64,000 bases of DNA from Hymenobacter psoromatis (GTDB lineage Bacteria > Bacteroidota > Bacteroidia > Cytophagales > Hymenobacteraceae). This document shows, piece by piece, positions 7,842 through 36,015 of this stretch (positions within the stretch are counted from its first letter, which is position 1; every line of letters begins with the position of its first letter). Both the position numbers and the translations under genes were made by a program. The notes beneath the pieces are model-generated. The model saw only the letters and a list, made by a program, of their open reading frames with translations, was not told the origin of the DNA and did not search any database. The stretch is from contig CP014771.1 in NCBI GenBank assembly GCA_001596155.1, positions 682,001 through 746,000 on the forward strand, read 5' to 3'.

Positions 7842-9191
7842 ATGACCATCCGCGCCCGTCTCACGCTCTTCTTTGCCGGCCTGATGCTGGCGCTGGTGGT
7901 GGCGGTGTCGTGCGGGGTTTACTTTTTTGAGCGCAACAGCCAGCGCGACATCTTCGCGCAGCGGCTGCTGCGCAAGGCCGAGGCCACGGCCCAGGTATAT
8001 GTGCGCAAGCACGACCGCCTGGAGCCGACCGACGCCATTCTGCTGCTCACCCAGCAAAACCAGTACGAAGCTATCTACAACGAGGCCAATGAGTTGGCCT
8101 ATACCAGCCGGGCCAATCCCAGCCTCATCATCACCTCGCGCTTTCTAGTGCAGGTGCGCACGGCGGGCCGCCTGCTTTTCAATCACGAAGCAGCTCAGGG
8201 GGTAGCGCTGTATGCCAACGACGAGGGCGAGCGGTTTGTGGTCATCGTGACGGCGGAGGACAGCTACGGCCACGATGGCTTGCTGCGCCTGCGCAACAAC
8301 CTGCTGGTTAGTGATTTGCTGGGCATGGTGCTGGTGGTGCTGCTGGCCAACCTCTTTGCCGGGCGGGCGCTGCGCCCGGTGCAGCAGCTGAGCCGCGAGA
8401 TTCAGGGGCTATCGTCGCGCACGCTCGACCAGCGCCTGAGCACCGGCAACGGCCGCGACGAGCTGGCCCGCCTGGCCGCGCAGTTCAACGCCCTGCTGGC
8501 CCGCCTGGCCGACACGGTGGCCCAGAACCGCAGCTTCGTCAACCACGCCTCGCACGAGCTGCGCACGCCGCTGGCCAACCTGCTGGGCACGCTCGACATC
8601 TCGCGCGCCTACGACGAGCGGCCCCAGGAGCTGCGCGCTACCCTCACCTCGGCCACCGAAGAAGTGCGCCGCCTCATCTCCCTCACCAACGACCTGCTGC
8701 TGCTGGCCGAGCTCAGCCAGGAAAAGCCCGCCTCCGACCTGCCCCTGGTGCCCGTGCTGCTCATCGAGCCCCTGCTCGACGCCGTGCAAACCGTGCAGCG
8801 CCGCTACCCCGGCACCAGCATCGAGCTGCAATTGCCCGAGGCCGTGGAAGACTGCCAGGCCCGCGCCCACGCCGAGCTGCTGACGCTGGCCCTGGTCAAC
8901 CTCCTCGATAATGCCTGCAAATACTCGCCCGCGGGCTCGGCCGTGCACGCCAGCCTCGCCGCCGGGCCGCGGGGCTGCGAATACGGCGTGCGCGACGCCG
9001 GCCGGGGCATTGACCCCGAGGCCCTACCCCATATTTTTGAGCCCCTGTACCGGGCCGAGGCCGTGCGGGGCCAGGTGCCGGGCAATGGCGTGGGCCTGAG
9101 CCTGGTGCAGCGCGTGGCCGAGCTGCACGGCGGCGGCATCGCCGTAAAGTCGGGGGTAGGCGAGGGCACCGAGTTTCGCCTGTGGCTGTGA
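7842..9191 (+). CDS. Membrane sensor histidine kinase (CusS-like)
   Basis: This 449-residue kinase has a first membrane helix at residues 5-28, a periplasmic sensor domain of about 120 residues, a second helix near residues 155-175, a HAMP domain (RALRPVQQLSREI), and HisKA with His238 in ASHELRTPLANLL. The ATPase follows, with N-box LLDNACKYSP, G1 DAGRGIDP, the F-box and G2 GNGVGLSLV. The architecture matches metal-sensing CusS/CzcS kinases. The ATG at 7842 is used; an upstream in-frame start would read through the palindrome. The periplasmic ligand is not identifiable from sequence. Confidence 0.93.
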   Translation: MTIRARLTLFFAGLMLALVVAVSCGVYFFERNSQRDIFAQRLLRKAEATAQVYVRKHDRLEPTDAILLLTQQNQYEAIYNEANELAYTSRANPSLIITSRFLVQVRTAGRLLFNHEAAQGVALYANDEGERFVVIVTAEDSYGHDGLLRLRNNLLVSDLLGMVLVVLLANLFAGRALRPVQQLSREIQGLSSRTLDQRLSTGNGRDELARLAAQFNALLARLADTVAQNRSFVNHASHELRTPLANLLGTLDISRAYDERPQELRATLTSATEEVRRLISLTNDLLLLAELSQEKPASDLPLVPVLLIEPLLDAVQTVQRRYPGTSIELQLPEAVEDCQARAHAELLTLALVNLLDNACKYSPAGSAVHASLAAGPRGCEYGVRDAGRGIDPEALPHIFEPLYRAEAVRGQVPGNGVGLSLVQRVAELHGGGIAVKSGVGEGTEFRLWL

Positions 9192-9493
9192 GCGGTGGCC
9201 CAGGCTTTTCGGTGCCCGGCAACTACCGGCCAAATAGCCTGGGTTTTATTAAATTAATTAATTTATTGGGGATTTATCCAGCCGGCCTTCATCTAAAACC
9301 CTGGGGTAGGGGGCTACCTTCGTAGTAGCTATGTGGTTGCCCCAACGGGCTGCCCGCTGCCGACGGCGGTCTCTACCCGGCGTTTAGTAGGTGAAAAGCC
9401 GGCCGCGACGCGGGCTGGCGCGGGCAAGTAGCTTTTGGCTGGCTGCTGCCCGGTAGCGCGGCTTCTGGAGCCGCGCCCCCAGCGTGCATTCGT
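9192..9493. other. Intergenic region without a gene
   Basis: About 300 bases between the kinase and the ClC gene. It holds a short AT-rich patch near 9247-9275 and a CTACCTTCG element near 9315 that weakly resembles a -7 promoter box. No RNA gene or conserved coding frame was seen. Confidence 0.5.
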
Positions 9494-10957
9494 ATGTCCG
9501 ATTCCAAGCTTACTACCCGCTACGAACAGGCCCTGGCCTGGTTCGACCACTACCTCATTCGGCCGCTGTACACGGCGCGGGTGCGGCGGCTCATTCTGCA
9601 AAGCTTCCCGTTCTGGATTGCTTCGCTGCTGACCGGCGCGATGGCCGTGGGCTACGAGCGCGTCTTCAATTGGGCCGAGCAGGTGAGCTTTACCTGGCTC
9701 AGCAAAGTGCCGCTCCAGGCGTTCGGGCTCACGCCGGTCGCGTTTTTGGCGGCCTGGGCGCTGATTCATTACCTGGCCCCGGCCGCCAGGGGCAGCGGCA
9801 TTCCGCAGGTGATGGCGGGCATCGACCTCTCCAACCCCTCGCAGTATCGCCACACCGAGTATTTGCTGAGCCTGCGCGTGGGCATCGTCAAAATAGTGAG
9901 CAGCGTGGTGCTGCTGCTGGGTGGCGGCATCATCGGCCGCGAGGGGCCCACCATTCACGTGTCGGCGATTATCTTCCGCACTATCAATCGCTTGCAGCCG
10001 GCGGGCTGGCCCCAGCTCTCGCGCCAGATTGCGCTCGTGACGGGCGGCGCGGCCGGGCTGGCCGCCGCCTTCAACACCCCGCTCGGCGGCATCGTGTTCG
10101 TGGTGGAGGAGCTGACCCAGATTCACTTGTCGCGCTTTCGCATGGCCGTGTTCGCGGCCGTTATCATCGCTGGGCTCACGGCCCAGCAGTTTCTGGGCCC
10201 TTATCTCTACCTGGGCTTCCCGAAGGTGACCTCGCCGGCTGGCTGGTTTCAGGTGCTGGCAATGGGCTGCGCGATGGTCTGCGGCCTGGCGGGGGCGCTT
10301 TTTGGCAAAACCCTGCTGGGGGTGGCGCAGTACCGCAAGCGCTTCACCACCCTGGGCGCGCAGATGGGCTGGGTAGTGGGCTGCGGCTTCGCGCTGGCCA
10401 CGCTGGCCTACTTCGTCGGCGTGGATGGGGTAGGAACCGGCAAGCCGATTATCAACCGCCTGCTGTTTCAGAACAGCGGCACCACGCCCTTCTACCTGTT
10501 TCCGGTGCGCTTCGCGGGCATGGTGCTCAGCTACAGCGCCGGCGGGGCGGGGGGCATTTTTTCGACTTCGCTGAGCGCGGGCGCGCTGCTCGGCGATGGC
10601 CTGGCCCGCCTGGCCGGCGTGCCCATCGTGGACCGCAACCTGCTGATTCTGGTCAGCATGGTGGGGTTTCTGACCGGCGTGGTGCGCTCGCCTTTCACGG
10701 CCGCCATCCTGGTTTTGGAGATGACGGACCGCCATTCGGCCATTTTCCAGCTGCTGATGGGCGCGCTGCTGGCCCAGGCCGTGGCCGCGCTCGTGGACCC
10801 GCACTCGCTCTATGAGCACCTCAAGCACGGCTTCATCCGCGAGGCGCTGGCTCAGGAGCTGAGCCCGCAGGCCGCCGCCCTACCCCCCGACCACGACGAC
10901 GAGCACGACCACGAGCAGGAAAACGTGAAGCCCCAGAAAACGCAGCCAACCGAGTAG
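9494..10957 (+). CDS. ClC-family chloride channel/exchanger
   Basis: This 487-residue polytopic membrane protein carries the canonical ClC motifs: GSGIPQV near residue 95, GREGP with the gating Glu, PLGGIVFVVEE, where the second Glu corresponds to the internal proton glutamate of exchangers, and GGAGGIFSTSLSAGA. No CBS domain follows. The C-terminus is a short His/Asp/Glu-rich tail (DHDDEHDHE) that might bind metal. Having both glutamates suggests Cl-/H+ exchange rather than a passive channel (inference). The TAG stop lies in the following inverted repeat. Confidence 0.93.
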   Translation: MSDSKLTTRYEQALAWFDHYLIRPLYTARVRRLILQSFPFWIASLLTGAMAVGYERVFNWAEQVSFTWLSKVPLQAFGLTPVAFLAAWALIHYLAPAARGSGIPQVMAGIDLSNPSQYRHTEYLLSLRVGIVKIVSSVVLLLGGGIIGREGPTIHVSAIIFRTINRLQPAGWPQLSRQIALVTGGAAGLAAAFNTPLGGIVFVVEELTQIHLSRFRMAVFAAVIIAGLTAQQFLGPYLYLGFPKVTSPAGWFQVLAMGCAMVCGLAGALFGKTLLGVAQYRKRFTTLGAQMGWVVGCGFALATLAYFVGVDGVGTGKPIINRLLFQNSGTTPFYLFPVRFAGMVLSYSAGGAGGIFSTSLSAGALLGDGLARLAGVPIVDRNLLILVSMVGFLTGVVRSPFTAAILVLEMTDRHSAIFQLLMGALLAQAVAALVDPHSLYEHLKHGFIREALAQELSPQAAALPPDHDDEHDHEQENVKPQKTQPTE

Positions 10958-11063
10958 CGCGAACTTTCCAGTTCGTGCGCGAGCGCAACGAGCAGGCGGG
11001 GCCGCGCGGCGCGAATGACCCTGCTCGCTGGTGCTCGCGCACGAACTGGAAAGTTCGCGCTAC
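10954..11063. repeat. Perfect inverted repeat (family C) between convergent genes
   Basis: Arms 10954-10984 and 11033-11063 are exact 31-base reverse complements beginning GTAGCGCGAACTTTCCAG. The left arm includes the ClC stop codon; the right arm abuts the stop of the convergent DJ-1 gene. It probably serves as a bidirectional terminator. A relative lies at 62242-62390 and a short one at 58493-58530. Confidence 0.95.
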
Positions 11064-11744
11064 TTACTTTTTCAGCTGCCTGAGCATTTCCTCGGCGGCG
11101 GGGCCTGACGAGGCGGGGTTCTGGCCCGTGATGAGGTTGCCGACCGTCACCACGTGGGGCTGCCAGTCGGCCTTTTTCGAGTAGATGCCGCCGTTTTCCT
11201 TCAGCATATCTTCCACCAAAAAGGGCACTACGTTGGTGAGCTGCACGGCCGCTTCCTCGGTGTTGGTGAAGCCCGTTACGGCCTTGCCTTTCACCAGCGG
11301 TTCGCCGTTGGCGGCCTTCACGTGGCGCAGCACGCCGGGGGCGTGGCACACCACGGCTACCGGCTTGCCGGCGGCGTAGGCCTTTTCAATCAGCGCGATA
11401 GAGTCCTTATCCTCAGCCAAATCCCAGAGCGGGCCGTGGCCGCCGGGGTAGAAAACGGCGTCAAAATCCGCAGCCTTAATCGTGTCGAGCTTCACGGTGT
11501 GGGCCAGCGCCTGCTGGGCCGCCGGGTCTTGCTTGAAGCGCCGGGTGGCATCGGTCTGGGTATCGGGCGTGTCGCTGGCCGGGTCGAGCGGCGGCTGGCC
11601 GCCCTGGGGCGAAGCCAGTGTGAGGGTCGCGCCGGCATCCTTGAATACGTAGTAAGGCGCGGCAAATTCTTCCAGCCAGAAGCCGGTTTTGTGACCCGTG
11701 TCGCCGAGCTGGTCGTGCGAAGTCAAAATGAGGGCAATTTTCAT
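11064..11744 (-). CDS. DJ-1/PfpI (type 1 glutamine amidotransferase-like, Hsp31-like) protein
   Basis: This 226-residue alpha/beta protein has the nucleophile elbow AVVCHAPGVL with the catalytic Cys. FYPGGHGPLWDL precedes it and the Glu/His region near EEFAAPYYVFKDAG lies at the N-terminus, as in Hsp31-like glyoxalases and chaperones. The likely role is repair of glyoxal damage or stress protection (family knowledge). It sits with an oxidoreductase and the ohr peroxide genes in a stress-response stretch. The start is the ATG at 11744. Confidence 0.9.
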   Translation of the reverse strand: MKIALILTSHDQLGDTGHKTGFWLEEFAAPYYVFKDAGATLTLASPQGGQPPLDPASDTPDTQTDATRRFKQDPAAQQALAHTVKLDTIKAADFDAVFYPGGHGPLWDLAEDKDSIALIEKAYAAGKPVAVVCHAPGVLRHVKAANGEPLVKGKAVTGFTNTEEAAVQLTNVVPFLVEDMLKENGGIYSKKADWQPHVVTVGNLITGQNPASSGPAAEEMLRQLKK

Positions 11745-26184: not shown

Positions 26185-27462
26185 CTACAACTCGCCTACC
26201 CGTCGTCCAACCTGCCGGCCCAATAACGGGTGTTTGGCCCCGCCCACCATCTGCGAGCCGTAGATGCCGCTGTGGCCCGAAAACAAATAAGCCATTACGC
26301 AGCTCAGCCCCAGGTAGATACCCGCCTGCGCGCCAAACAATTCGAGCCCCATCAGCACGCAGGCAAGCGGCGTGTTGGCCGCCCCCGCGAACACGCCCAC
26401 GAAGCCCATGCCCGCCAGCAGCGCCACCGGCAGCGGCAAAATGCCCGCCAGCGCCGAGCCCAGCGTGGCCCCGATAAAAAATAGCGGCGTCACTTCGCCC
26501 CCCTTAAAGCTGGCCCCCAGCGTGAGGGCCGTCAGCAGCAGCTTCAGGGCAAAATCCTGCGCCCCGAGCTGGTGCCCAAACGCCTCCACGATGACGGGCA
26601 CGCCCAGGCCGGCGTAGCGCATGGTGCCCAGGCCCCACATGGCCGCCGCCACCAGCGCGCCGCCCACCACCGGCCGCAGGGGGGGGTAGGGAATTGTGTT
26701 GGCAAAAACCTTCGAAATGGCGTGCGTGAGCATGGCAAATGCCCGCGCCGCCAGCCCAAACAGCGCGCCCGCCAGCAGCGTGGCCCCCAGCCCGCCCGCC
26801 GTGAGGGGCAGCGCCGCCAGGGGGGGGTAGGCGGTGTGGCCCACGCCCCAGGCGCGCGTAACCGCATCGGCCACCACGGCCGCCAAAAAGCTCGGCAAAA
26901 TGGCCTCGTAGCGCACCTGGCCCAGCAAATACACCTCCAGCCCAAACACCGCGCCCGCCAGCGGCGTCCCAAAAATAGAGGCAAATCCCGCGCTCATGCC
27001 CGCGATGAGCAGCAGCCGGCGCTCACGCCGGGGCAGCCAGCGCGCCAGCTGGTCGGCCAGGGCCGCACCCATCTGCACGGCCGTGCCCTCGCGCCCCGCC
27101 GAGCCGCCAAACAGGTGCGTGAGCAGCGTGCCGCCCAGCACCAGCGGCACCAGCCGCAGCGGAATCGTCTCGCTGGGCGCGTGTAATTCGTCCAGTATCA
27201 GGTTGTTGCCCTTCACCACCCGGTTGCCGAAGTAGTGGTAGGCCAGGCCCACCACCAGGCCGCCCGCCGGCAGCAGCGCCAGCGCCCAGGGGTGGGCCAC
27301 GCGCCAGCTCGTCACCCACTCCAGGCTCACTAAAAAGCCCGCCGAGGCGGTGCCCGCCAGCGCGCCCACCAGGGCGGCTAGTAGCAACCAGCGCAGGGTG
27401 AAGAGGAGGGTAGGGGCCAGGTTTTGCCGGCGAAAGAATAGAAGCGCGGAAGTCGTAGTCAC
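26185..27462 (-). CDS. ClC-family anion transporter, probable fluoride exporter (CLC-F type)
   Basis: This 425-residue membrane protein is a ClC homologue with altered signature motifs: GNNLI where chloride ClCs have GSGIP, GREGT with the gating Glu, and FKGGEVTPLF where chloride types have a GxFxP motif. Such substitutions mark the fluoride-exporting F-clade, which protects cells by fluoride/proton antiport (family knowledge). It differs strongly from the chloride-type ClC at 9494. No fluoride riboswitch was recognised upstream. The start is a GTG at 27462. Confidence 0.75.
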   Translation of the reverse strand: MTTTSALLFFRRQNLAPTLLFTLRWLLLAALVGALAGTASAGFLVSLEWVTSWRVAHPWALALLPAGGLVVGLAYHYFGNRVVKGNNLILDELHAPSETIPLRLVPLVLGGTLLTHLFGGSAGREGTAVQMGAALADQLARWLPRRERRLLLIAGMSAGFASIFGTPLAGAVFGLEVYLLGQVRYEAILPSFLAAVVADAVTRAWGVGHTAYPPLAALPLTAGGLGATLLAGALFGLAARAFAMLTHAISKVFANTIPYPPLRPVVGGALVAAAMWGLGTMRYAGLGVPVIVEAFGHQLGAQDFALKLLLTALTLGASFKGGEVTPLFFIGATLGSALAGILPLPVALLAGMGFVGVFAGAANTPLACVLMGLELFGAQAGIYLGLSCVMAYLFSGHSGIYGSQMVGGAKHPLLGRQVGRRVGEL

Positions 27463-27505
27463 GGCGCGAAGTAACGAGACGTTTACCTAGTGGCCTTATG
27501 ACGGG

Positions 27506-29119
27506 TTAGGTTGCCGCTTCGACCTGTTGGGCAGCCCAGCCATCTTTTCCCTTCTTTTGGTCGAATTGCGCCACGGCGATACCGCGTACCATCTGGCCAG
27601 TTTGCCAATCCTGCTGGCTTACGAAGCGGGCCGGAATAAAAACGCCTTCTACAAACCCAAAGCCAGCTGCTTGTACTCGTAATATGCCTTCGAATGCCTT
27701 GGTAGCAGTTGCTGCGGTTGGGGCCGGCTGAGCGGTTAGGCGGGTATCCCAGAGCTGCCCACCGGGGCGGGGTATTAACTGAACTACCCGTAGCCGCTCG
27801 GCCACTACTTCGCTGCGCACTTGCAACGGGCTGCCTAACGGCAGCTTTTGCAGCCAACGGTATTTTTTGAGCGGTACACTCATCGGCCGGGCATCCAGCC
27901 CAGCGGGTAGCAGGCGGGCCAGCGCCATCTTTTCAGGGGTTTCGTCGGTGATGGCTTGCAGCACCACGGGCTGCCAGGGCAGGTCGCCGTAGGTAGTCTG
28001 CTCGGCCAGGGCCAGCCATTCGCGGCGGGCGGTTTCGGCGGGGGCGGGTGGGTGATTGGCTAGCTGCGCGGCCAGCAGCAGGGTTTCCCCCTTCGTGTTC
28101 CAACCTTCGGCGGCGTAGGTGGCCTGCGCTTTTTCGAGCTGCCAGCGGGCTTCGCCGGGATGGGTATCGGCCAGCAGCCGGGCCAGCTTGAGGCGCAGCT
28201 TACCCAGAAATTTTTCTTCGCTGCCGCAGGCGCTGGCTTTATACAAGCAGGCCAGCGCGGCGGCCGGGTCGGTGGGTTCCAGGGTTTCGGCCAGCAAGTT
28301 CCAGGCCCAGAACTCGCCGCTTTTCTGGCGCACCACGGGTAGCAGCGTGGGCAGGGCGGCGGCCGCGTCGCCGGTGCTCAACTGAAGTTTAGCCTTAAAA
28401 AACGGCAGCCACTGGTAACTGGGATGCTGCCCAATGGCCGCCGCTAGCTGCGGCAGGAAAGCGGCAATGTTGGCCTGGTGCTGGCTGGCTTCGGCTAGTA
28501 GCTCGCGTGCCAGGGCCATGTAGGCCTGCTCGGCCAGCGGCATTTGCTTTTTGCCCTGGTATTCTTCGCCTTGATAATCTTCGGGGCGCAACGCATCGGC
28601 TAAGGGTCTGGCCAGTAGTAATTTTAGCGGGCAGGCTTTTTCCTTGAAATGCAGCGTGGCTTTGAGCAGCGCCGAATGTGGCTCGGAAGCAATAGCGTAG
28701 GGGAACCGCGCCACCTGCGCCAATAGCTGATGGGCTTCGGTCTGGTGGCGGGCGCGGCTATCGCTACCGGGCAGGCTGCTGCGCGTCCAGGTATCCTGCT
28801 CATTCACTTGCACTTTCACCCAGCCGGCAATCGGGTAGCTGGCTTTCGCCAGGGCGTACAACCGCCTAACCACCTGCCAGATAAGGTTGGGATACAGCAT
28901 TTCCTCCTCCGGTCCTAGCCCCAGCTTCGCCACGGCGGCCAGAGCCTGCAAAAACCCGAACGAGTTTTCACTAGTCAGGCCCTTCAACTGGTCGTGATAC
29001 ACCCAGGCTAGGTTGCGTTTGGCCCACACGTCGGTTGGTTTGGCCGCCAGTTCGGCCAGCCCTTGTGCCAGGGCTTCCGCCAGCTGGCCGCCTCGGCGGA
29101 GTTCGGTAACGGTGGGCAT
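27506..29119 (-). CDS. Helical-repeat (TPR-like) protein with C-terminal OB/cold-shock-like domain, third gene of the R-M operon
   Basis: This 537-residue protein was not confidently recognised. Residues 1-400 are helical with TPR-like pairs (ALAQGLAELAAKPTDVWAKR, and WAWNLLAETLEPTDPAAALA). The final roughly 70 residues (FEGILRVQAAGFGFVEGVFI, then GQMVRGIAVAQFDQKKGKDGW) resemble an OB-fold or cold-shock-like nucleic-acid-binding domain. There is no signal peptide. It starts 17 bases after the helicase stop, so it is almost certainly co-transcribed with the helicase and the methyltransferase-endonuclease. A scaffold or nucleic-acid sensor role is inferred from this context. Confidence 0.75.
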   Translation of the reverse strand: MPTVTELRRGGQLAEALAQGLAELAAKPTDVWAKRNLAWVYHDQLKGLTSENSFGFLQALAAVAKLGLGPEEEMLYPNLIWQVVRRLYALAKASYPIAGWVKVQVNEQDTWTRSSLPGSDSRARHQTEAHQLLAQVARFPYAIASEPHSALLKATLHFKEKACPLKLLLARPLADALRPEDYQGEEYQGKKQMPLAEQAYMALARELLAEASQHQANIAAFLPQLAAAIGQHPSYQWLPFFKAKLQLSTGDAAAALPTLLPVVRQKSGEFWAWNLLAETLEPTDPAAALACLYKASACGSEEKFLGKLRLKLARLLADTHPGEARWQLEKAQATYAAEGWNTKGETLLLAAQLANHPPAPAETARREWLALAEQTTYGDLPWQPVVLQAITDETPEKMALARLLPAGLDARPMSVPLKKYRWLQKLPLGSPLQVRSEVVAERLRVVQLIPRPGGQLWDTRLTAQPAPTAATATKAFEGILRVQAAGFGFVEGVFIPARFVSQQDWQTGQMVRGIAVAQFDQKKGKDGWAAQQVEAAT

Positions 29120-29136
29120 AGCGGCGGGGTAAAGGG

Positions 29137-31293
29137 TTAATCCAGGTTTTGCAGAATGGTGTGCAGGCGGTTCATAAGCTCCGGCGAATCGTGCTGCGTG
29201 AGCCGCGCCCCGGTAATGCGGCCTTTGCCGTCATAATCCAGGTTCAGCACCGCCCGGCCCGTGGCATCTTGCAGCAGGTAGCGCTCCACGTATTTATGGT
29301 GCTGCACTATCAGTATCATGATTTCCTGATTGGCGGCAGCCTCGGCAAACTGCTCGTAGAAGCCCGCCAGCGCGGGCGGGGCATCGTCGGCAAAAGTGGC
29401 TGGCACCACGGCAATGCCGGGCGGTAGCGGCTCGTTGAGCCGGGCAACTGCGTCTTGGGCGAGGGCGCTAGGTTTGCCAATGGCCTGCGCCTTACTCAGG
29501 GGGACGTCATTTTTATAGTAAGCCAGTAGTTCGCTCTGCTCTTCGCCCCGGTGCAGGGTGTAGCGCAGCGCGTGCTGCTGGTCGGCCACGGCGGCCACGG
29601 TCACGCCCATTTCCCCAAGCTGTCCTGCTACCCGCCGAAACTGCTGTATTTGCGCCGGGGGGCGCTGCCCAATGCCCAGCCGGGCTTCCAGCGCATCTAG
29701 CGGGTCGAACTGCGCCGTTTGTGCCCGCAACACTTCGGGCCACAGCTGGACCCCGCCCGGCGCAGGCGGAACGCCTACCGGGTCAAACAATCGCAGCTCA
29801 CCCCAAGGCACGAAATCCGGCGGATTCAGTAAGTACAGGTGCTTGGCGGCCCGCGTAATGGCCGTATAAACCCAGCGGAAATACGAGGCGTTGCGCTGCC
29901 CGGCGTACCCCTGAAAATCTACGAAAGCGGTATTCCAGGTGCCGCCCTGCGCCTTGTGGCAGGTAATGGCGTAGCCATACTTCACCCGCAACGCCTGAAA
30001 CTGCGGGTCTTTTCTAAGGAAATCGCTGAACTCGGGGTGTTTGTGGTCGTGCCCGGTTTTGCCCCGCCACCGGATAACCGCGTCAATGTAGAGCGCCCGC
30101 ATTTCGGCGGAGGTCAATTTCCCTTCAATGCGGTTCAGAAAACTTTCCAGGAGTAGCCGCTCGGCTTCGTAGGTGCTGCCATTGGGCCGGGTGAGGCGCA
30201 GGCGCACCCAGCGCCATTGCAACGGTACATAAACTTCGGTTCGCTTTTCTTCGCCGGTCTGCTTGTCGGTAGTGGTAATGGCCACCTTCCGCGAACTGCC
30301 GAATGATTCGCCCACTTCCAGCACGGTGGCAAATTCGCCGTTGTAAATTGCCTCCTCGGGGTCGAGGTAATTATTCTGGCTGATAATAAGCCAGTCGCGG
30401 GTCGCGATGGTGGCCAGGCCCGGAAAAAAATGCGCCCGTATCTGCTCGTTGTACTGGCGGGCTAGGTTGTTGGAATACGTAACGATAACCGTTTGATCGC
30501 CCGCTTCCGGGCCACCCCCGGCCGCCAGGTAAGTGGTGAGAATTCCACCCGCCGGCACATCCTGCACATCGGCCGCCCGCGTCAGGCGCAGGCGCGCGAA
30601 GTTGCCGGTGCGGATGCCATCGCGCACGGCCGTGGCGTTTTGCAGGATGCCACTACCGGCCTGTTGGCGCTTTACCTCGGTCATCTCGACCTCGCGCACG
30701 GCTTGGCCGCCCAAGCGGGCGCGAAGCCAGTCGGCATCGAGCGCCCACGAGTCGCGGTCGCCTACGGGCTGCAACTGCGCCCGGTCGCCCACAAACAGAA
30801 TTTTGTAGCCATTGCTGGCCGAAGGCTGCACGTAGCGCAGGAAGTCACTCAGCAGCTGCCCGCTACCCAACCGAAAAAACTCGCCCTCGCTAAAGTTATC
30901 GCCTACCATCGAGGCCTCGTCCACGACGAACACCGTGCCGGCCGGTGCTTGGTTAATAGCTAGGTCGAAATGGTATTTGAACGACTTAAGCGCGTCGTCC
31001 TTGCCCGTATTGTCTTCCCGGTTTTCCAGCCGCCGCAGCTTCTCAAAATTGTAGATGCCCCGGTGAATGGTAGTAGCCAAGCGCCTCGTTTGCCGGGTCA
31101 TCACTCGCGCCGCCCGCCCGGTAGGAGCCAGCAACACGGCGGGCTGCCGCAAGTCGGCCAGCAGCTTTTTCAGCAAATACGTTTTACCCGTGCCCGCATA
31201 TCCCCGCAACAGAAACACCAGTTCCTCGGGGCGCGTGAGGAAATTGTTGAATGCAGCGAGGGCATCAGCTTGAGTAGTGGGAGGAAGGGTCAT
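29137..31293 (-). CDS. RecD/Dda-like SF1 helicase, second gene of the R-M operon
   Basis: This 718-residue ATPase has Walker A GYAGTGKT (residues 31-38), Walker B VVDEAS (124-129), motif III GDRAQLQPVGD, motif V YAITCHKAQGGTW and motif VI YTAITRA, in the order expected of RecD2/Dda-type 5'-3' SF1B helicases. A C-terminal region of about 190 residues after the helicase core is unassigned. It starts 31 bases after the methyltransferase-endonuclease gene. Helicases of this sort in restriction operons may translocate on or unwind target DNA after cleavage (inference). Confidence 0.9.
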   Translation of the reverse strand: MTLPPTTQADALAAFNNFLTRPEELVFLLRGYAGTGKTYLLKKLLADLRQPAVLLAPTGRAARVMTRQTRRLATTIHRGIYNFEKLRRLENREDNTGKDDALKSFKYHFDLAINQAPAGTVFVVDEASMVGDNFSEGEFFRLGSGQLLSDFLRYVQPSASNGYKILFVGDRAQLQPVGDRDSWALDADWLRARLGGQAVREVEMTEVKRQQAGSGILQNATAVRDGIRTGNFARLRLTRAADVQDVPAGGILTTYLAAGGGPEAGDQTVIVTYSNNLARQYNEQIRAHFFPGLATIATRDWLIISQNNYLDPEEAIYNGEFATVLEVGESFGSSRKVAITTTDKQTGEEKRTEVYVPLQWRWVRLRLTRPNGSTYEAERLLLESFLNRIEGKLTSAEMRALYIDAVIRWRGKTGHDHKHPEFSDFLRKDPQFQALRVKYGYAITCHKAQGGTWNTAFVDFQGYAGQRNASYFRWVYTAITRAAKHLYLLNPPDFVPWGELRLFDPVGVPPAPGGVQLWPEVLRAQTAQFDPLDALEARLGIGQRPPAQIQQFRRVAGQLGEMGVTVAAVADQQHALRYTLHRGEEQSELLAYYKNDVPLSKAQAIGKPSALAQDAVARLNEPLPPGIAVVPATFADDAPPALAGFYEQFAEAAANQEIMILIVQHHKYVERYLLQDATGRAVLNLDYDGKGRITGARLTQHDSPELMNRLHTILQNLD

Positions 31294-31324
31294 GGGTTGA
31301 GAGGCGTAAATACCATCTGGCAGC

Positions 31325-33916
31325 CTAACGCGGCCCCAAAAAACGGTCGCCGTTGAAGTGAATCATGTTACCCGGCATTTCCTGAATCCAAACTTCGGTG
31401 TGCCAGGCCAGGGCGCTGCTGTATTTTTTAAATAGCTTGAAATCAGGGAAGGCTGTCACGTACACCGGGCCGGCCGGGCAACTCTTCAGCATTTCCTGCA
31501 GCTCCAGTTTGCGCTTGGGCGATACCGGGCCGTGGCTGGTTACGACTTCAATGAGGAATAGCCATTCGCTGCCATCGGGGCGGGCCTGGAGCACCACCAC
31601 ATCGGGCAGCTTGCTGTGCTGGCCCAGCGGCACGCCTAGGCGCTGCAAAGTGGCGGCATCCTCAAACAGATGCTTTTGTTCGGTATCGCCCAGATAAAGC
31701 AGCTGAGCACTGGGGGCGAAGGTCGGTAAGAACTGCTCAAGCACGGCTCGTTGCACCTCGTTGTGCAAACCGGGCGAAAGGGCTACCGGGCGGCCATCCG
31801 GTAGTACTAGCTCAATGCGCTGCTGGTTGCGGGCCGCGGCGTATTGGGCGGTCAGGGCTGCGTGTTGGGCCTGAAAAGCGGTGAGCTGCGCGGGCCACTG
31901 GTCGGTGCCATAAGCTTGCAGCAGGCTGACGGCTTCGGCCGTAAGCGCATAATGCGCCTTGGGACTGTTGACGGGCAGGGCGGGCGCATCGGGGTTGTAG
32001 GCCACCAAGCCAGCCTGCACAAACTGGTGCAGCACCTGGCGGCGGAATGTTTCGCGGGTATTTTCCTTATACACCTGATTATAGGTAGCGGCGATAAAGT
32101 CGCTGATGCCCCGCGAAACCCGTTTGCTCTGGCCGGTGGCGGCCCCCCACGGGTCGGCCGGCCCCAGGCTGGCCAGGGCCAGCAGCGTATAAGCGGAAAC
32201 CTTGTTTTGCTGCGCGGCCGGCATTCCTACGGCGCTTAGCAGTTGCTGGGCCTCGCGGACTTTGGGCGGCAGTTCGGCATCGGGGTTCGCGTAGGGTAGG
32301 GTGGGCTCAGCCATAAAATTAGCGGGGAGTGAATAGGCAGCGGTTGGCAGTTGCAAAAGGTCGGCTACCAGTTGGTCGGCTACGTCCCAGCCGTGGGCCT
32401 GCACCCGCGTCCCCAGGGCCTCGATAGCTGGCCAGGCGGGCACGGGCAACTCGCGGGCCTCAGTGGCGCTGACTTGCGTATTGCCGTTGAAAAGCCTAAA
32501 AAACTGGTCGTAGGGCCGGCTGCTCAGCAACGCGGCCAGGCCAATGGCCTGCACCGGCGTAAACTCGCCCCGACGGGCGTAGAGGTAGTTGAGCTTATTC
32601 TCAAAGCCCAGGTGCGAAGCGGCCCAATCGGCGGCCAGGCACGGCGCGGCCACGATGCGCCGGGTCTCATCTTTGGCGCTGATGCGGCGCATCAGCACGT
32701 AGTTACGGTTGGGTACCAGTTGCGCCTTTGGCGTAGCCGCGGCCAGGTATTGGGGTTTGGTGCGCGCGGGGAGCGGCCAGCGCCAGCGCCCGCCCGGCCC
32801 TACGTTATCCATCCAGAGCAGGGGTAGCGCTCCCGGCGCGGGCTGTTCACGCAGCCACTCGGCGGCCCGAAAAGCCACTACCGGCCCGGTGGAAACCCCC
32901 ACGCCCAGGTCGGCCAGGCGGTGCGTCCAGCTGCGAAAACGGGTCAGCAGGGCGTTTTCCTCGGCATCAGTGGGTAAAAAAAGTAAGCTGCCCTGGCGTT
33001 CGGGACCAACCACTTCGGCTGGTGGCTGCGCAAACTCGCTGGCTTCGCCCAAATCGTGCATCCCGGCCGAAGCAGAAATAATAACCGCGGGCGCGGCTGC
33101 CAGGCCGGGGTTGGCACCGCCGTGGCGAACAGCTTTGAACAAAACCGTTTCCTGCAATACGGCATCCTTCTTAAACGCCGCCCGGCGCGAATGAAACAGG
33201 TGAAACCGCGCCCAACGCCACTGCTGCTGGGCAAAGCGCCGAAACCGCGCAAAATAGGGACCCGAGCTAAAGCTACGCGGCACCAGGAAGAGCAGTTCGC
33301 CCCCCGGCCGGACGAGCTTGCCGGCCAGCACGGCAAACAGCGCGTATATATTGGGCTGCGCGTAGGCCGCCCCAGCCAGCACATTGCGCGGGTCGTGCTG
33401 CCCAAGCTTAAAATACGGAGGATTGGCAATAACTACGTCATAAGCGGCGGGTGGTGCTAGTGGAAACTGCCAGACGGCAGCGTGCGCCAATATAAAGTCA
33501 GCCGTGTGCAGGCGAGTAGTCAGTTCGATGCCCCGGCTGGCCAGCCAAACAGTGAGGTGACCCATTACCGCCTGGGCAGTGGGTAGTAGGCTTTCATCTA
33601 CATCGTATGCTTCCAGCGCTATCAGCCGTAGTGCGGGGGAGTTTTCTGCAAAATGCTCTAGTAGGCAGCAACTTAAAATTCCCGTCCCAAAGCCTGGGTC
33701 AAGCACGCGAACAGCCTCGGTGCTAGGCGGAGTGGCCCAGTGAGCAAGGTATTCACCGATGAGCAACGGCGTAAAAAACTGGCCTAACTCCTTTTTGCGG
33801 GCCGAGGAATTATGGCGGGCATAGTGCTCACCAAGCCGGGCAGCTACTGCGCTGGGTCGCTCCCTGTCGGGGGTAGTAGAAGGTAAGTCGGGGGCAACTA
33901 ATTCGGCAACTAACAT
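31325..33916 (-). CDS. Fused N6-adenine methyltransferase and BsuBI/PstI-type restriction endonuclease
   Basis: This 863-residue protein has an N-terminal methyltransferase with AdoMet motif VLDPGFGTG (71-79) and catalytic NPPY (165-168), preceded by the RKKELGQFFTP motif. The C-terminal 320 residues match the PstI/BsuBI endonuclease: a winged N-terminal part with NTRETFRRQVLHQFVQAGLV, then the PD-(D/E)XK nuclease with Asp772, Glu790 and the nearby TSHGPVSPKRK, ending IHFNGDRFLGP. PstI and BsuBI have separate methylase and nuclease genes of similar summed size, so this is a head-to-tail fusion. Recognition of CTGCAG is inferred from homology only. It is first in a three-gene operon. Confidence 0.92.
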   Translation of the reverse strand: MLVAELVAPDLPSTTPDRERPSAVAARLGEHYARHNSSARKKELGQFFTPLLIGEYLAHWATPPSTEAVRVLDPGFGTGILSCCLLEHFAENSPALRLIALEAYDVDESLLPTAQAVMGHLTVWLASRGIELTTRLHTADFILAHAAVWQFPLAPPAAYDVVIANPPYFKLGQHDPRNVLAGAAYAQPNIYALFAVLAGKLVRPGGELLFLVPRSFSSGPYFARFRRFAQQQWRWARFHLFHSRRAAFKKDAVLQETVLFKAVRHGGANPGLAAAPAVIISASAGMHDLGEASEFAQPPAEVVGPERQGSLLFLPTDAEENALLTRFRSWTHRLADLGVGVSTGPVVAFRAAEWLREQPAPGALPLLWMDNVGPGGRWRWPLPARTKPQYLAAATPKAQLVPNRNYVLMRRISAKDETRRIVAAPCLAADWAASHLGFENKLNYLYARRGEFTPVQAIGLAALLSSRPYDQFFRLFNGNTQVSATEARELPVPAWPAIEALGTRVQAHGWDVADQLVADLLQLPTAAYSLPANFMAEPTLPYANPDAELPPKVREAQQLLSAVGMPAAQQNKVSAYTLLALASLGPADPWGAATGQSKRVSRGISDFIAATYNQVYKENTRETFRRQVLHQFVQAGLVAYNPDAPALPVNSPKAHYALTAEAVSLLQAYGTDQWPAQLTAFQAQHAALTAQYAAARNQQRIELVLPDGRPVALSPGLHNEVQRAVLEQFLPTFAPSAQLLYLGDTEQKHLFEDAATLQRLGVPLGQHSKLPDVVVLQARPDGSEWLFLIEVVTSHGPVSPKRKLELQEMLKSCPAGPVYVTAFPDFKLFKKYSSALAWHTEVWIQEMPGNMIHFNGDRFLGPR

Positions 33917-34042
33917 GACGCAAGATAAGTGGCCGGCACTAGCCGCAACGCCCCTCAGAGAGTAGCAGCCCGCTGGTAAGCGACGATGTGGCCGGGTTGC
34001 GACAGGTCCTCAGTTCGTTGTAACGTGGGGCTGGGCGACAAG

Positions 34043-35902
34043 CTATTCTTTGAGCTTGCGCCCGCTTTTCTTCTTTTCCACCACCGCTGCCGGCACCTCC
34101 GCCGTCACCAGCAGCCCTTCGCGCCGCAGCACGTCGCGCAGTCCGTGCAACGTCGGAAACTCCGTGCGCAGCTCCTGGGCCAGGCGCAGCACCGGGTCGG
34201 TGAGGCGGGGCGCGGTGCCGCGCATACTCACCAGCCAGCGGCCGATGCGCTCGTATAGAAATGCCCCGCGCTTGGCCCCGGCGCGGCCGTTGAGGTAGGC
34301 GGGCAGGCGGGTTTCCAGCTCCAGCATCAGGGGCGTGGGGTCCACGGCGGCCAGGCGCATCAGCGCGATTTCGGAGTGGTAGGGCGGGCTCACGTTCAGC
34401 CACTCCAGGCCCAGCACGAAGGCGCGCAGCTCCTCTACATTGCCCTCGCGGGCCAGCAGCTCAGCGGCAAAGGCCACGCTGCCGCGCCGGGCGGTGGCGG
34501 CGGCCACGGCCTCGCGCACCAGGGCGGCGGTTTCGGTCGCGCTTAGCAGCGGGCGCAGGGCGGCGAAGTCGTCGAGGCTGTGGTTGGCCAGCGTGCGGTA
34601 GCGCAGGGCGGCGGGGTAGAGGGTAGGGGCCTGGTCCACGGCAAAGCTGCTGAGCACGTAGTCGGCAAACTGGTCGGGCCAGGTGGCGAAGGCCGTGGTG
34701 GCGGTGCGCAGGCGGGCGGGCAGGTCGCCCTGGTTGGCGTGGTAGCTGAGCAGCTGCCGGGCCACCTGGGCATCGTCGGCCACGAGGGTTTCGGCGGTGG
34801 CAAGCCAGGCCGCGTCGTCGGCCAGGGTGCGGGCCAGGCGCAGGCGCAGGTGGGCCAGGGTGGCGGGGGCCAGCTGCGCGGCGGCCAGCAGCGCCGGAAA
34901 AAGCGGCGCGGCCGTGGGGTCGGCGGCCAGGCTTTCGAGCAGCGGCTGCCAGGTAGCGTCATAGTCGGGCCAGCGGGCGGGCGGGTCGGCCAGGTGCTTG
35001 GTGAGCCAGGTAACAGCACTCTTTATCTCGCGGGCGGGCAGCACGGCGGTGGTCAGCAGCAGCGGCCAGCCTTCGGTAGCCAGCACCTCCTGCCACTGCT
35101 CCAGCGCCTCCTGTCCATAGTCGCCAAAGGCCCCGTACTCGTCGCTGGCCGGCTCTTCGACCTGAAAAATGGCCCCGCAGGCGGTGGTCCAGTAGCGCAG
35201 CGCCTCTTTAAGCTGGCCGGCCCGCGCCAGGGCCAGCAGTTCGGCGGCAAAGGCGTGCAGCTCCTCGCGCACCAGCTCGCAGGCCCCTTCCCTTAGCGCG
35301 TCGCCCTCGTCGTAGCCGTAAGCCGGGTCGCTCTCAAAAAAATCGTCATCAAATTCCAGGGTTTCCAGCGCCTCGCGCAGACGCTCGGCCAGGTGCTTGG
35401 TGGGGTCGGGGGCCTTGGCCTTTTTTTCGGGCAGCGCCGCCGGCTCGTCGAAGGCCAGAAACTGCCGGGCCAGGTCGTCGCTCTTGCGCAGCGCCAGCTC
35501 CAAAAAGCGCAGGCGCTCGGCCTCGGGGCGGGCGGCCCAGGTGCGGGCCACCTGCGCGGGCAGCTGGTCGGCGGCGGTGGCGGTGGCGGAGGGGGTAGGG
35601 GCGGCGGTTTCGGCCGGCAGCTGGCCCAGGCTGTTGCCATAGGTGGCCAGCACGGCCAGGCCCAGCGCCACGCTGTGCTTGCAGATGCCCTCCCAGTCGT
35701 AGGCGCAGTCGCAGCTAAACTCGGCCGCGCCGCTGGCCAGCCACAGCTGCACGCTGTAGCGGTAGGTGCCCTTTACGCGGGCGCTGAAGCGGGTCGGGGC
35801 CGGGCAGGCCAGCTTCTGCACCGCGCCGGCATCGTAGAGCGCCTGGCCGCGGTCGAATACTTTGGCTTCGGCCAGGCGGCGCAGGGTTTGCTGAGTAAAC
35901 AT
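34043..35902 (-). CDS. SWIM zinc-finger family protein
   Basis: This 619-residue soluble protein carries an N-terminal SWIM zinc-binding motif (Cys64, Cys66, Cys74, His76; CDCAYDWEGICKHSVAL) followed by a long Ala/Leu-rich helical region. SWIM domains bind DNA or proteins; many bacterial members are uncharacterised. The ATG at 35902 is used; a start at 35932 adds ten hydrophobic residues with no clear purpose. Its stop lies 126 bases before the R-M operon start on the same strand, so membership in that operon is possible but not supported. It is very GC-rich compared with that operon. Confidence 0.8.
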   Translation of the reverse strand: MFTQQTLRRLAEAKVFDRGQALYDAGAVQKLACPAPTRFSARVKGTYRYSVQLWLASGAAEFSCDCAYDWEGICKHSVALGLAVLATYGNSLGQLPAETAAPTPSATATAADQLPAQVARTWAARPEAERLRFLELALRKSDDLARQFLAFDEPAALPEKKAKAPDPTKHLAERLREALETLEFDDDFFESDPAYGYDEGDALREGACELVREELHAFAAELLALARAGQLKEALRYWTTACGAIFQVEEPASDEYGAFGDYGQEALEQWQEVLATEGWPLLLTTAVLPAREIKSAVTWLTKHLADPPARWPDYDATWQPLLESLAADPTAAPLFPALLAAAQLAPATLAHLRLRLARTLADDAAWLATAETLVADDAQVARQLLSYHANQGDLPARLRTATTAFATWPDQFADYVLSSFAVDQAPTLYPAALRYRTLANHSLDDFAALRPLLSATETAALVREAVAAATARRGSVAFAAELLAREGNVEELRAFVLGLEWLNVSPPYHSEIALMRLAAVDPTPLMLELETRLPAYLNGRAGAKRGAFLYERIGRWLVSMRGTAPRLTDPVLRLAQELRTEFPTLHGLRDVLRREGLLVTAEVPAAVVEKKKSGRKLKE

Positions 35903-36015
35903 GGTAAGTAGGAGCAAGTAGGACCGGGGCAAAAATAACGCGGTGCGCCCTACCCCCCTCCCCTGTAATGACCGCTGCCCTACGGCGATATAGGAGGGCG
36001 ACCGGCAAAAAATGC

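Follow-up and report, generated by a model that had tools for sequence, protein, structure and literature searches.

Introduction

In type II restriction-modification (R-M) systems of the BsuBI/PstI type, the methyltransferase protects the system's own site and the endonuclease cuts unmethylated sites, the PstI-type enzymes leaving 3' overhangs. A second group of systems relevant here is TOTE, named after TPR, OB, TBP and Effector, as stated in PMC12458937 with reference to Aravind, Iyer et al. 2022. PMC12458937 was the only paper found in our literature search that uses the name in this sense; TOTE is not named in the accessible text of PMC7159879, and a search on the PADLOC candidate PDC-M16 found no paper.

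The locus described here lies in Hymenobacter psoromatis, within a stretch of 64,000 nucleotides (contig CP014771.1, positions 682,001 to 746,000) referred to as the window. It shares with BsuBI/PstI R-M systems such as SdaI (PDB 2ixs) an Eco57I/N6-type methyltransferase and a two-domain endonuclease, but differs in that a single chain holds the two halves, as already known from PDLC03359, and in that a TOTE pair comes after it. As far as the accessible text defines TOTE/PDC-M16, the likeness consists of a TBP-TOTE helicase and a DUF7017 TPR protein with S1/CSD-TOTE, in the usual order and with matching PDC-M16A/B scores; the partner in the window is a type II methyltransferase-endonuclease fusion (M-R), whereas the proteobacterial plasmid versions carry a DUF4145 N-terminal domain and others a retron or YhcG. 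The retron-TOTE operons of Bacteroidota have close helicases, the same kind of third gene and the same order behind the partner, but the window block lacks both an RT and the a1/a2 repeat of the genus. TALON, in the portion of PMC12458937 accessible to us, has TPR-CSD and TBP in common with TOTE, plus a nuclease and a helicase; these are a YprA-type helicase and a NERD nuclease, whereas the window encodes an SF1B helicase and a BsuBI/PstI enzyme. The locus contains a conserved two-gene module (TOTE/PDC-M16) with an exchangeable partner, and its best reading, from sequence comparison, would be a retron-type TOTE operon with an R-M fusion in the retron's place.

The three-gene block and its fused enzyme

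The block lies on the minus strand and consists of the M-R gene (31325..33916, 863 aa), the TOTE helicase gene (29137..31293, 718 aa) and a third gene encoding a TPR-OB protein (27506..29119, 537 aa). The ORF coordinates agree with the original prediction of three minus-strand genes separated by 31 nt (M-R/helicase) and 17 nt (helicase/third gene), and no terminator-like site was found when both gaps were scanned. A promoter scan placed a promoter-like box, TATCTTG, 11 nt 5' of the M-R gene start and none before the helicase or the third gene; it also found none before the flanking CLC and SWIM genes, so the scan says little. The predicted operon is supported as an operon-like unit, whose genes are probably co-transcribed. 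The identity of the three parts is close to certain, far more so than their coupling.

The N6-adenine methyltransferase part of M-R comprises residues 1 to ~520 (window ~32357-33916, minus strand) and is followed by the HTH domain (residues 552-688, ~31853-32263, minus) and the PD-(D/E)XK domain (residues 703-856, ~31349-31810, minus) of the endonuclease. The protein matches the Pfam families Eco57I (5.6e-9), BsuBI_PstI_RE_N (2.8e-43) and BsuBI_PstI_RE (5e-50), and SdaI, a solved enzyme, matches its endonuclease half over residues 550-862 (5.1e-56). Across a 16-row alignment, NPPY (165-168) and the PD...E.VTSHG signature (771-772 and 790-796 except 791) are invariant. These results corroborate the description of the gene as an NPPY N6-adenine methyltransferase joined to a complete PstI/BsuBI nuclease. 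The novelty that had been attached to the fusion, in comparison with the separate classical genes, is not borne out: the PADLOC model PDLC03359 (840 positions) aligns over residues 28-838 (6.7e-157), and both halves are present in 66 of 120 M-R homologues among the matches listed, as counted by us. By these matches the fusion is already modelled and common, not new. M-R is probably a one-chain type II R-M enzyme of the SdaI/BsuBI/PstI type which, by analogy with its family, would methylate adenine in its own site and cut that site when unmethylated.

The PstI sequence CTGCAG occurs 8 times in 84 kb of the own genome (the window and L163), where 41.6 are expected, 142 times versus 208.8 expected in 16 loci of relatives, and 22 times versus 34.0 in four loci with M-R relatives. 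This avoidance was not accepted as proof of CTGCAG specificity, since other palindromes (CCCGGG, CCATGG, GTCGAC and CTCGAG) are equally depleted in the own genome. Over the same 84 kb, CCCGGG was seen once against 38.2 expected and CCATGG not at all against 10.1, a depletion that hints at further restriction specificities.

A helicase and a TPR-OB protein of the TOTE type

The helicase core extends over ~29824-31272 and the TBP-like part over ~29140-29676, both on the minus strand. Its Pfam matches are AAA_30 (3.8e-20), UvrD_C_2 (1.3e-15) and TBP-TOTE (PF22721; 9.4e-19, above cut-off), the last with two matches at the C-terminus, and PADLOC PDC-M16A aligns over residues 7-715 (7.2e-177). Residues of the Walker and other SF1 motifs do not vary across an alignment of 40 rows, and the structures closest to the model (pLDDT 88.5) are DSH9, T4 Dda, Pif1 and RecD2, which indicates an SF1B-like helicase and agrees with the RecD-like enzyme with SF1B motifs originally proposed. 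SF1B helicases move 5'-3' and load on 5' tails. A different helicase of ~480 aa, found in 118 of 120 genus genomes, accounts for nearly all matches there; ~37-44% identical over the core, it was set aside as a core RecD-like gene, not TOTE.

The adjacency of a helicase to a methyltransferase and a nuclease might suggest a restriction complex of the Type I/III or BREX/DISARM kind, with the helicase as its translocase. The motor of Type I/III, BREX and DISARM systems belongs to SF2, whereas the helicase is modelled as SF1B-like; no other subunit of such systems is among the three genes, and the endonuclease has all the parts of a type II enzyme. A Type I/III-like translocase was rejected on the helicase fold, and we regard this complex as highly improbable.

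In the third gene, a TPR-like solenoid with DUF7017 (~27989-29119, minus) precedes two OB/S1-CSD-like beta regions (~27770-27979 and ~27515-27706, minus), of which Pfam covers only the second, as S1CSD-TOTE-2. The matches are DUF7017 at 2.5e-30 and S1CSD-TOTE-2 at 5.3e-16 (PF22860 and PF22707, both above cut-off), and PADLOC PDC-M16B at 3.3e-75. The AlphaFold2 model (mean pLDDT 89.9) consists of a helical solenoid and then mostly beta regions at residues ~381-450 and 472-535, and among solved structures it matches TPR proteins best (E 2.3e-4); model and S1CSD-TOTE-2 match both accord with the helical/OB protein with a cold-shock-like tail seen earlier. On its own, DUF7017 marks TOTE poorly: it matches in 82 of 395 class genomes, in 27 of them above cut-off, and among 12 loci above the DUF7017 cut-off, four are without a TOTE helicase in the stretch and one has a short helicase that was not counted.

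The helicase and the third gene had been described as parts of a restriction operon. Both match TOTE Pfam domains and PDC-M16, and by these matches the pair can be identified as the TOTE core, equivalent to PDC-M16A/B, an already named module; we take the PADLOC prefix PDC to mark untested phage-defence candidates.

The site of the block and its flanks

The segment missing in relatives, defined by similarity breakpoints, is 27480..34055. On one side it is bordered by a CLC-type channel gene (26185..27462, minus), where similarity resumes at 27479, in the CLC leader, in G080 and G078. On the other lies a gene for a SWIM-type zinc-finger protein (34043..35932, minus), with a CxC..CxH pattern read by eye and a weak PADLOC PDC-S62 match; here similarity stops at 34051-34056, at the SWIM gene end, in G080, G048 and G101, at 34116 in G078 and at 34102 in G113. 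G080 has 13 flank proteins, 81-96% identical and in the same order as in the window; its SWIM and CLC genes enclose an unrelated gene of 338 aa, and all three block genes are absent. In G078 only ~330 bp separate SWIM and CLC, and the block is also absent from the site in G048. The whole block is thus without counterpart in three relatives that have both flanks, and was seen in the window only; in G113 what is left of the third gene is a C-terminal piece, which lies behind the SWIM gene. This pattern is consistent with a joint gain of the block. No word of 8-20 nt is shared between 27440-27520 and 33900-34100 that could represent direct repeats at the block ends.

The SWIM gene was considered as a fourth member and rejected, as G080, G048 and G078 have it at this position with the block missing. 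SWIM homologues at E up to 1e-30 were detected in 28 of 120 genus genomes, of which at least three share the position but have no block. There is no clear sign of a crowded defence island: a PADLOC scan of 10 further large ORFs in the window yielded nothing at 1e-8 apart from an OmpA/MotB-like match. Block transfer by a virus was also rejected: none of 48 pattern matches for the third gene in viral contigs was confirmed, and among 240 phage records with a helicase match none covers 80% of the protein, the 10 phage matches listed falling within residues 3-502, in the helicase core only.

M-R and TOTE rarely meet

Among the best 80 of at least 583 M-R relatives in GTDB contigs, none of the 80 loci has TOTE genes beside M-R within the sequence available, which extends at least 2.5 kb downstream in 61 loci and that far on both sides in 52. 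M-R matches were found in 12 of 120 genus genomes: five full-length fusions in four genomes, a split pair in a fifth, and endonuclease-side pieces only in the other seven, none of which has a TBP-TOTE match. TOTE adjoins one of these six genus loci, that of the window. The nearest M-R relatives (P0001-P0013) share no contig with a listed TOTE protein except the genome's own, as judged by eye on mostly short contigs. The own genome also encodes a second M-R fusion (C3:1164040-1166583; L163 about 8981-11587), 79% identical to that of the window, with no TOTE gene within 20 kb. The two copies are 72-96% identical per 40-residue block across the endonuclease and possibly share site specificity.

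The M-R/TOTE pairing is a singleton among the genomes searched. Co-conservation of the three genes, on which the original prediction would stand, was therefore not found (0 of the 80 best GTDB loci, of at least 583; one of six genus loci), and the trio as a conserved three-gene system was rejected, 5 of 6 genus loci being without TOTE. The prediction was to fail if the fusion occurred mostly alone and the other two genes in unrelated contexts: the fusion is indeed mostly without TOTE, and the helicase and third gene have other partners, but these two are still a conserved pair.

It can accordingly be asked whether two independent defence modules merely share a site, the R-M gene having landed upstream of the TOTE pair, or both having arrived together, with neither needing the other. 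M-R relatives without TOTE, including the second copy in the own genome, the mosaic ancestry of the block genes described below and the promoter-like box of M-R itself all speak for such independence. Against it stand the 31-nt gap with no terminator-like site, the position of M-R exactly in the slot of the retron or YhcG in relatives, the absence of the whole block at the site in three relatives, and the finding of no further defence gene among the 10 large flanking ORFs scanned. We give independence somewhat less than an even chance.

The TOTE pair and its upstream partners

The partner survey comprised 36 TOTE helicase loci. It excludes L003 as a duplicate plasmid record, G245 because its helicase is short, and G561 and G912, whose matches fall below the Pfam cut-off; G561 has a helicase together with a DUF7017 gene and no RT. 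Plasmids entered the survey from 5 of 94 records with a helicase match and from three found by a second search, a Runella one of them without helicase in the stretch. By our own profile, a TPR-OB gene directly follows the helicase in 31 of 36 loci, a count biased upward by the nine loci found via the third gene. The five exceptions are G701, with DUF7017 above cut-off, G517 and G198, with weak TPR-type matches, G589, which reaches the contig end, and G026, with no TPR-OB gene within 600 bp. In all four proteobacterial plasmid versions scanned, a DUF4145 domain is fused to the helicase. TOTE genes were also observed just behind CRISPR genes in L119 and L255; in the Runella plasmid the third gene follows cas1 and one more gene, and in G589 the helicase comes after a Cas1 gene.

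To the window helicase, 16 Bacteroidota loci from 15 genomes or plasmids (G877 is counted twice) score at least 275 bits and have at least 4 kb of upstream sequence. Their upstream partner is an RT, within 5 kb and on the same strand as the helicase, in 14, YhcG in one and M-R in one, namely the window; G367, where RT and YhcG are both present, was tallied as RT. No RT was found in five plasmid loci from other phyla that pass the same helicase score, nor in nine Bacteroidota loci that are more distant and offer 4 kb or more of upstream sequence. TBP-TOTE exceeds the cut-off in 13 of 395 phylum genomes, counting that of the window, and in 10 of 204 family genomes, of which eight have an RT, one YhcG and one M-R.

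In the helicase tree, the window helicase falls in a six-member genus clade (100/100), beside the RT locus G043 (94/100). Four of the six members are RT-linked, which is most simply explained by M-R having taken the place of a retron. Support is low at the deeper branches, and the RT-less G512 and G548 stand among RT-linked groups (support 59/70), so that the tree does not establish that the RT link arose only once. The nearest genus relative of the helicase is in G043 (79%) and that of the third gene in G053 (58%; 45% in G043), and because these relatives differ, the block genes have not been inherited together for long.

Retron-TOTE operons in relatives

The operons of relatives have the order retron-type RT, at least one variable gene, TOTE helicase and TPR-OB gene, the variable genes encoding ORFans, YhcG, or HisKin-conflict/response-regulator proteins. 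They include L121 6013-12454, L122 5755-12080, L123 6079-12599 and L125 7836-11999, the last without the TPR-OB gene that the others have, and further L118, L209, L211, L212, L246 and L278-L282. A divergent WYL/WCX gene lies upstream in both loci scanned for it. Four of four RTs tested match PADLOC retron models at 1e-100 or better, and the motifs NAxxH and YADD, in 9 of 9 checked, and VTG, in 8 of 9, are presumably marks of retron RTs. End repeats resembling msr-msd were seen in 9 of 13 retron-TOTE records checked.

In five genus loci, four with a TOTE helicase and G074, a stretch of 207-239 nt shortly 5' of the RT is bounded by a 13-nt inverted repeat (a1/a2). At two of its 13 pairs, one sequence carries changes on both sides that preserve the pairing, and 1 of 65 cells is broken; the covariation term in the consensus fold of the five sequences is unfavourable (+2.72). 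Among nine other RT loci, five have repeats of 11-15 nt, ~220-260 nt apart, and four have none or 9-nt matches only, counts that carry no chance control. The upstream RT elements look like retrons, on the basis of motifs, model matches and repeats, and the operons are possibly an undescribed retron type: our literature search found no retron with these partners, within a coverage that may exclude the retron classification papers. At G074 (L168 7692-10268), a retron-like RNA and RT precede a protein of ~402 aa that matches S1/CSD-TOTE at its C-terminus; the 20 kb of sequence covered there contain no TOTE helicase, and the locus is an apparent short form of retron-TOTE.

In the window, Pfam detected no RT among the three block genes, the genus a1/a2 pattern has no copy, and Rfam gave no match at gathering scores. 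The occupation of the retron slot by M-R can be read by analogy as a guard arrangement, in which M-R would hold the TOTE effector in check as msDNA-RT would, and phage interference would release TOTE and stop the cell. Retrons are known as guarded toxin-antitoxin-like systems, which lends this some plausibility, but the M-R active-site signatures are intact and the family works alone, and we consider such a guard improbable.

Discussion

We propose, tentatively and with chances put just short of even, that the block is a coupled two-module defence cassette formed by the M-R enzyme and the TOTE core. The M-R enzyme would tell self from non-self DNA and make breaks; the TPR-OB protein may bind single-stranded ends or the M-R enzyme and load the 5'-3' helicase, which would open invader DNA and so prevent its repair or replication. 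The cassette proposal draws on the identity and intact signatures of the parts, the operon-like layout, the absence of the whole block in relatives, and the position of M-R upstream of the pair, where other loci have a retron or YhcG nuclease; cooperation, physical coupling, the order of events and a defence role of the block are suggested by this context. A break-then-unwind scheme is mechanically awkward, because SF1B helicases load on 5' tails, whereas PstI-type cuts would give 3' overhangs. A broader view, which we hold to be unlikely though worth stating, is that the TOTE pair may be a portable DNA-processing effector placed behind different self/non-self detectors, usually a retron near this helicase; here M-R would have replaced the retron, with a restriction event or loss of the enzyme acting as disturbed msDNA does.

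The retron-TOTE operons may be a more interesting result than the M-R/TOTE pairing. If the coupling is not real, what is left at the locus is a type II fusion enzyme next to a defence candidate that is already catalogued. If it is real, one helper module would serve both retrons and restriction enzymes, and TOTE function would become testable, since an R-M trigger, unlike the retron version, could be controlled by methylated and unmethylated target sites; the 79% identical M-R without TOTE would provide a built-in control in the same genome.
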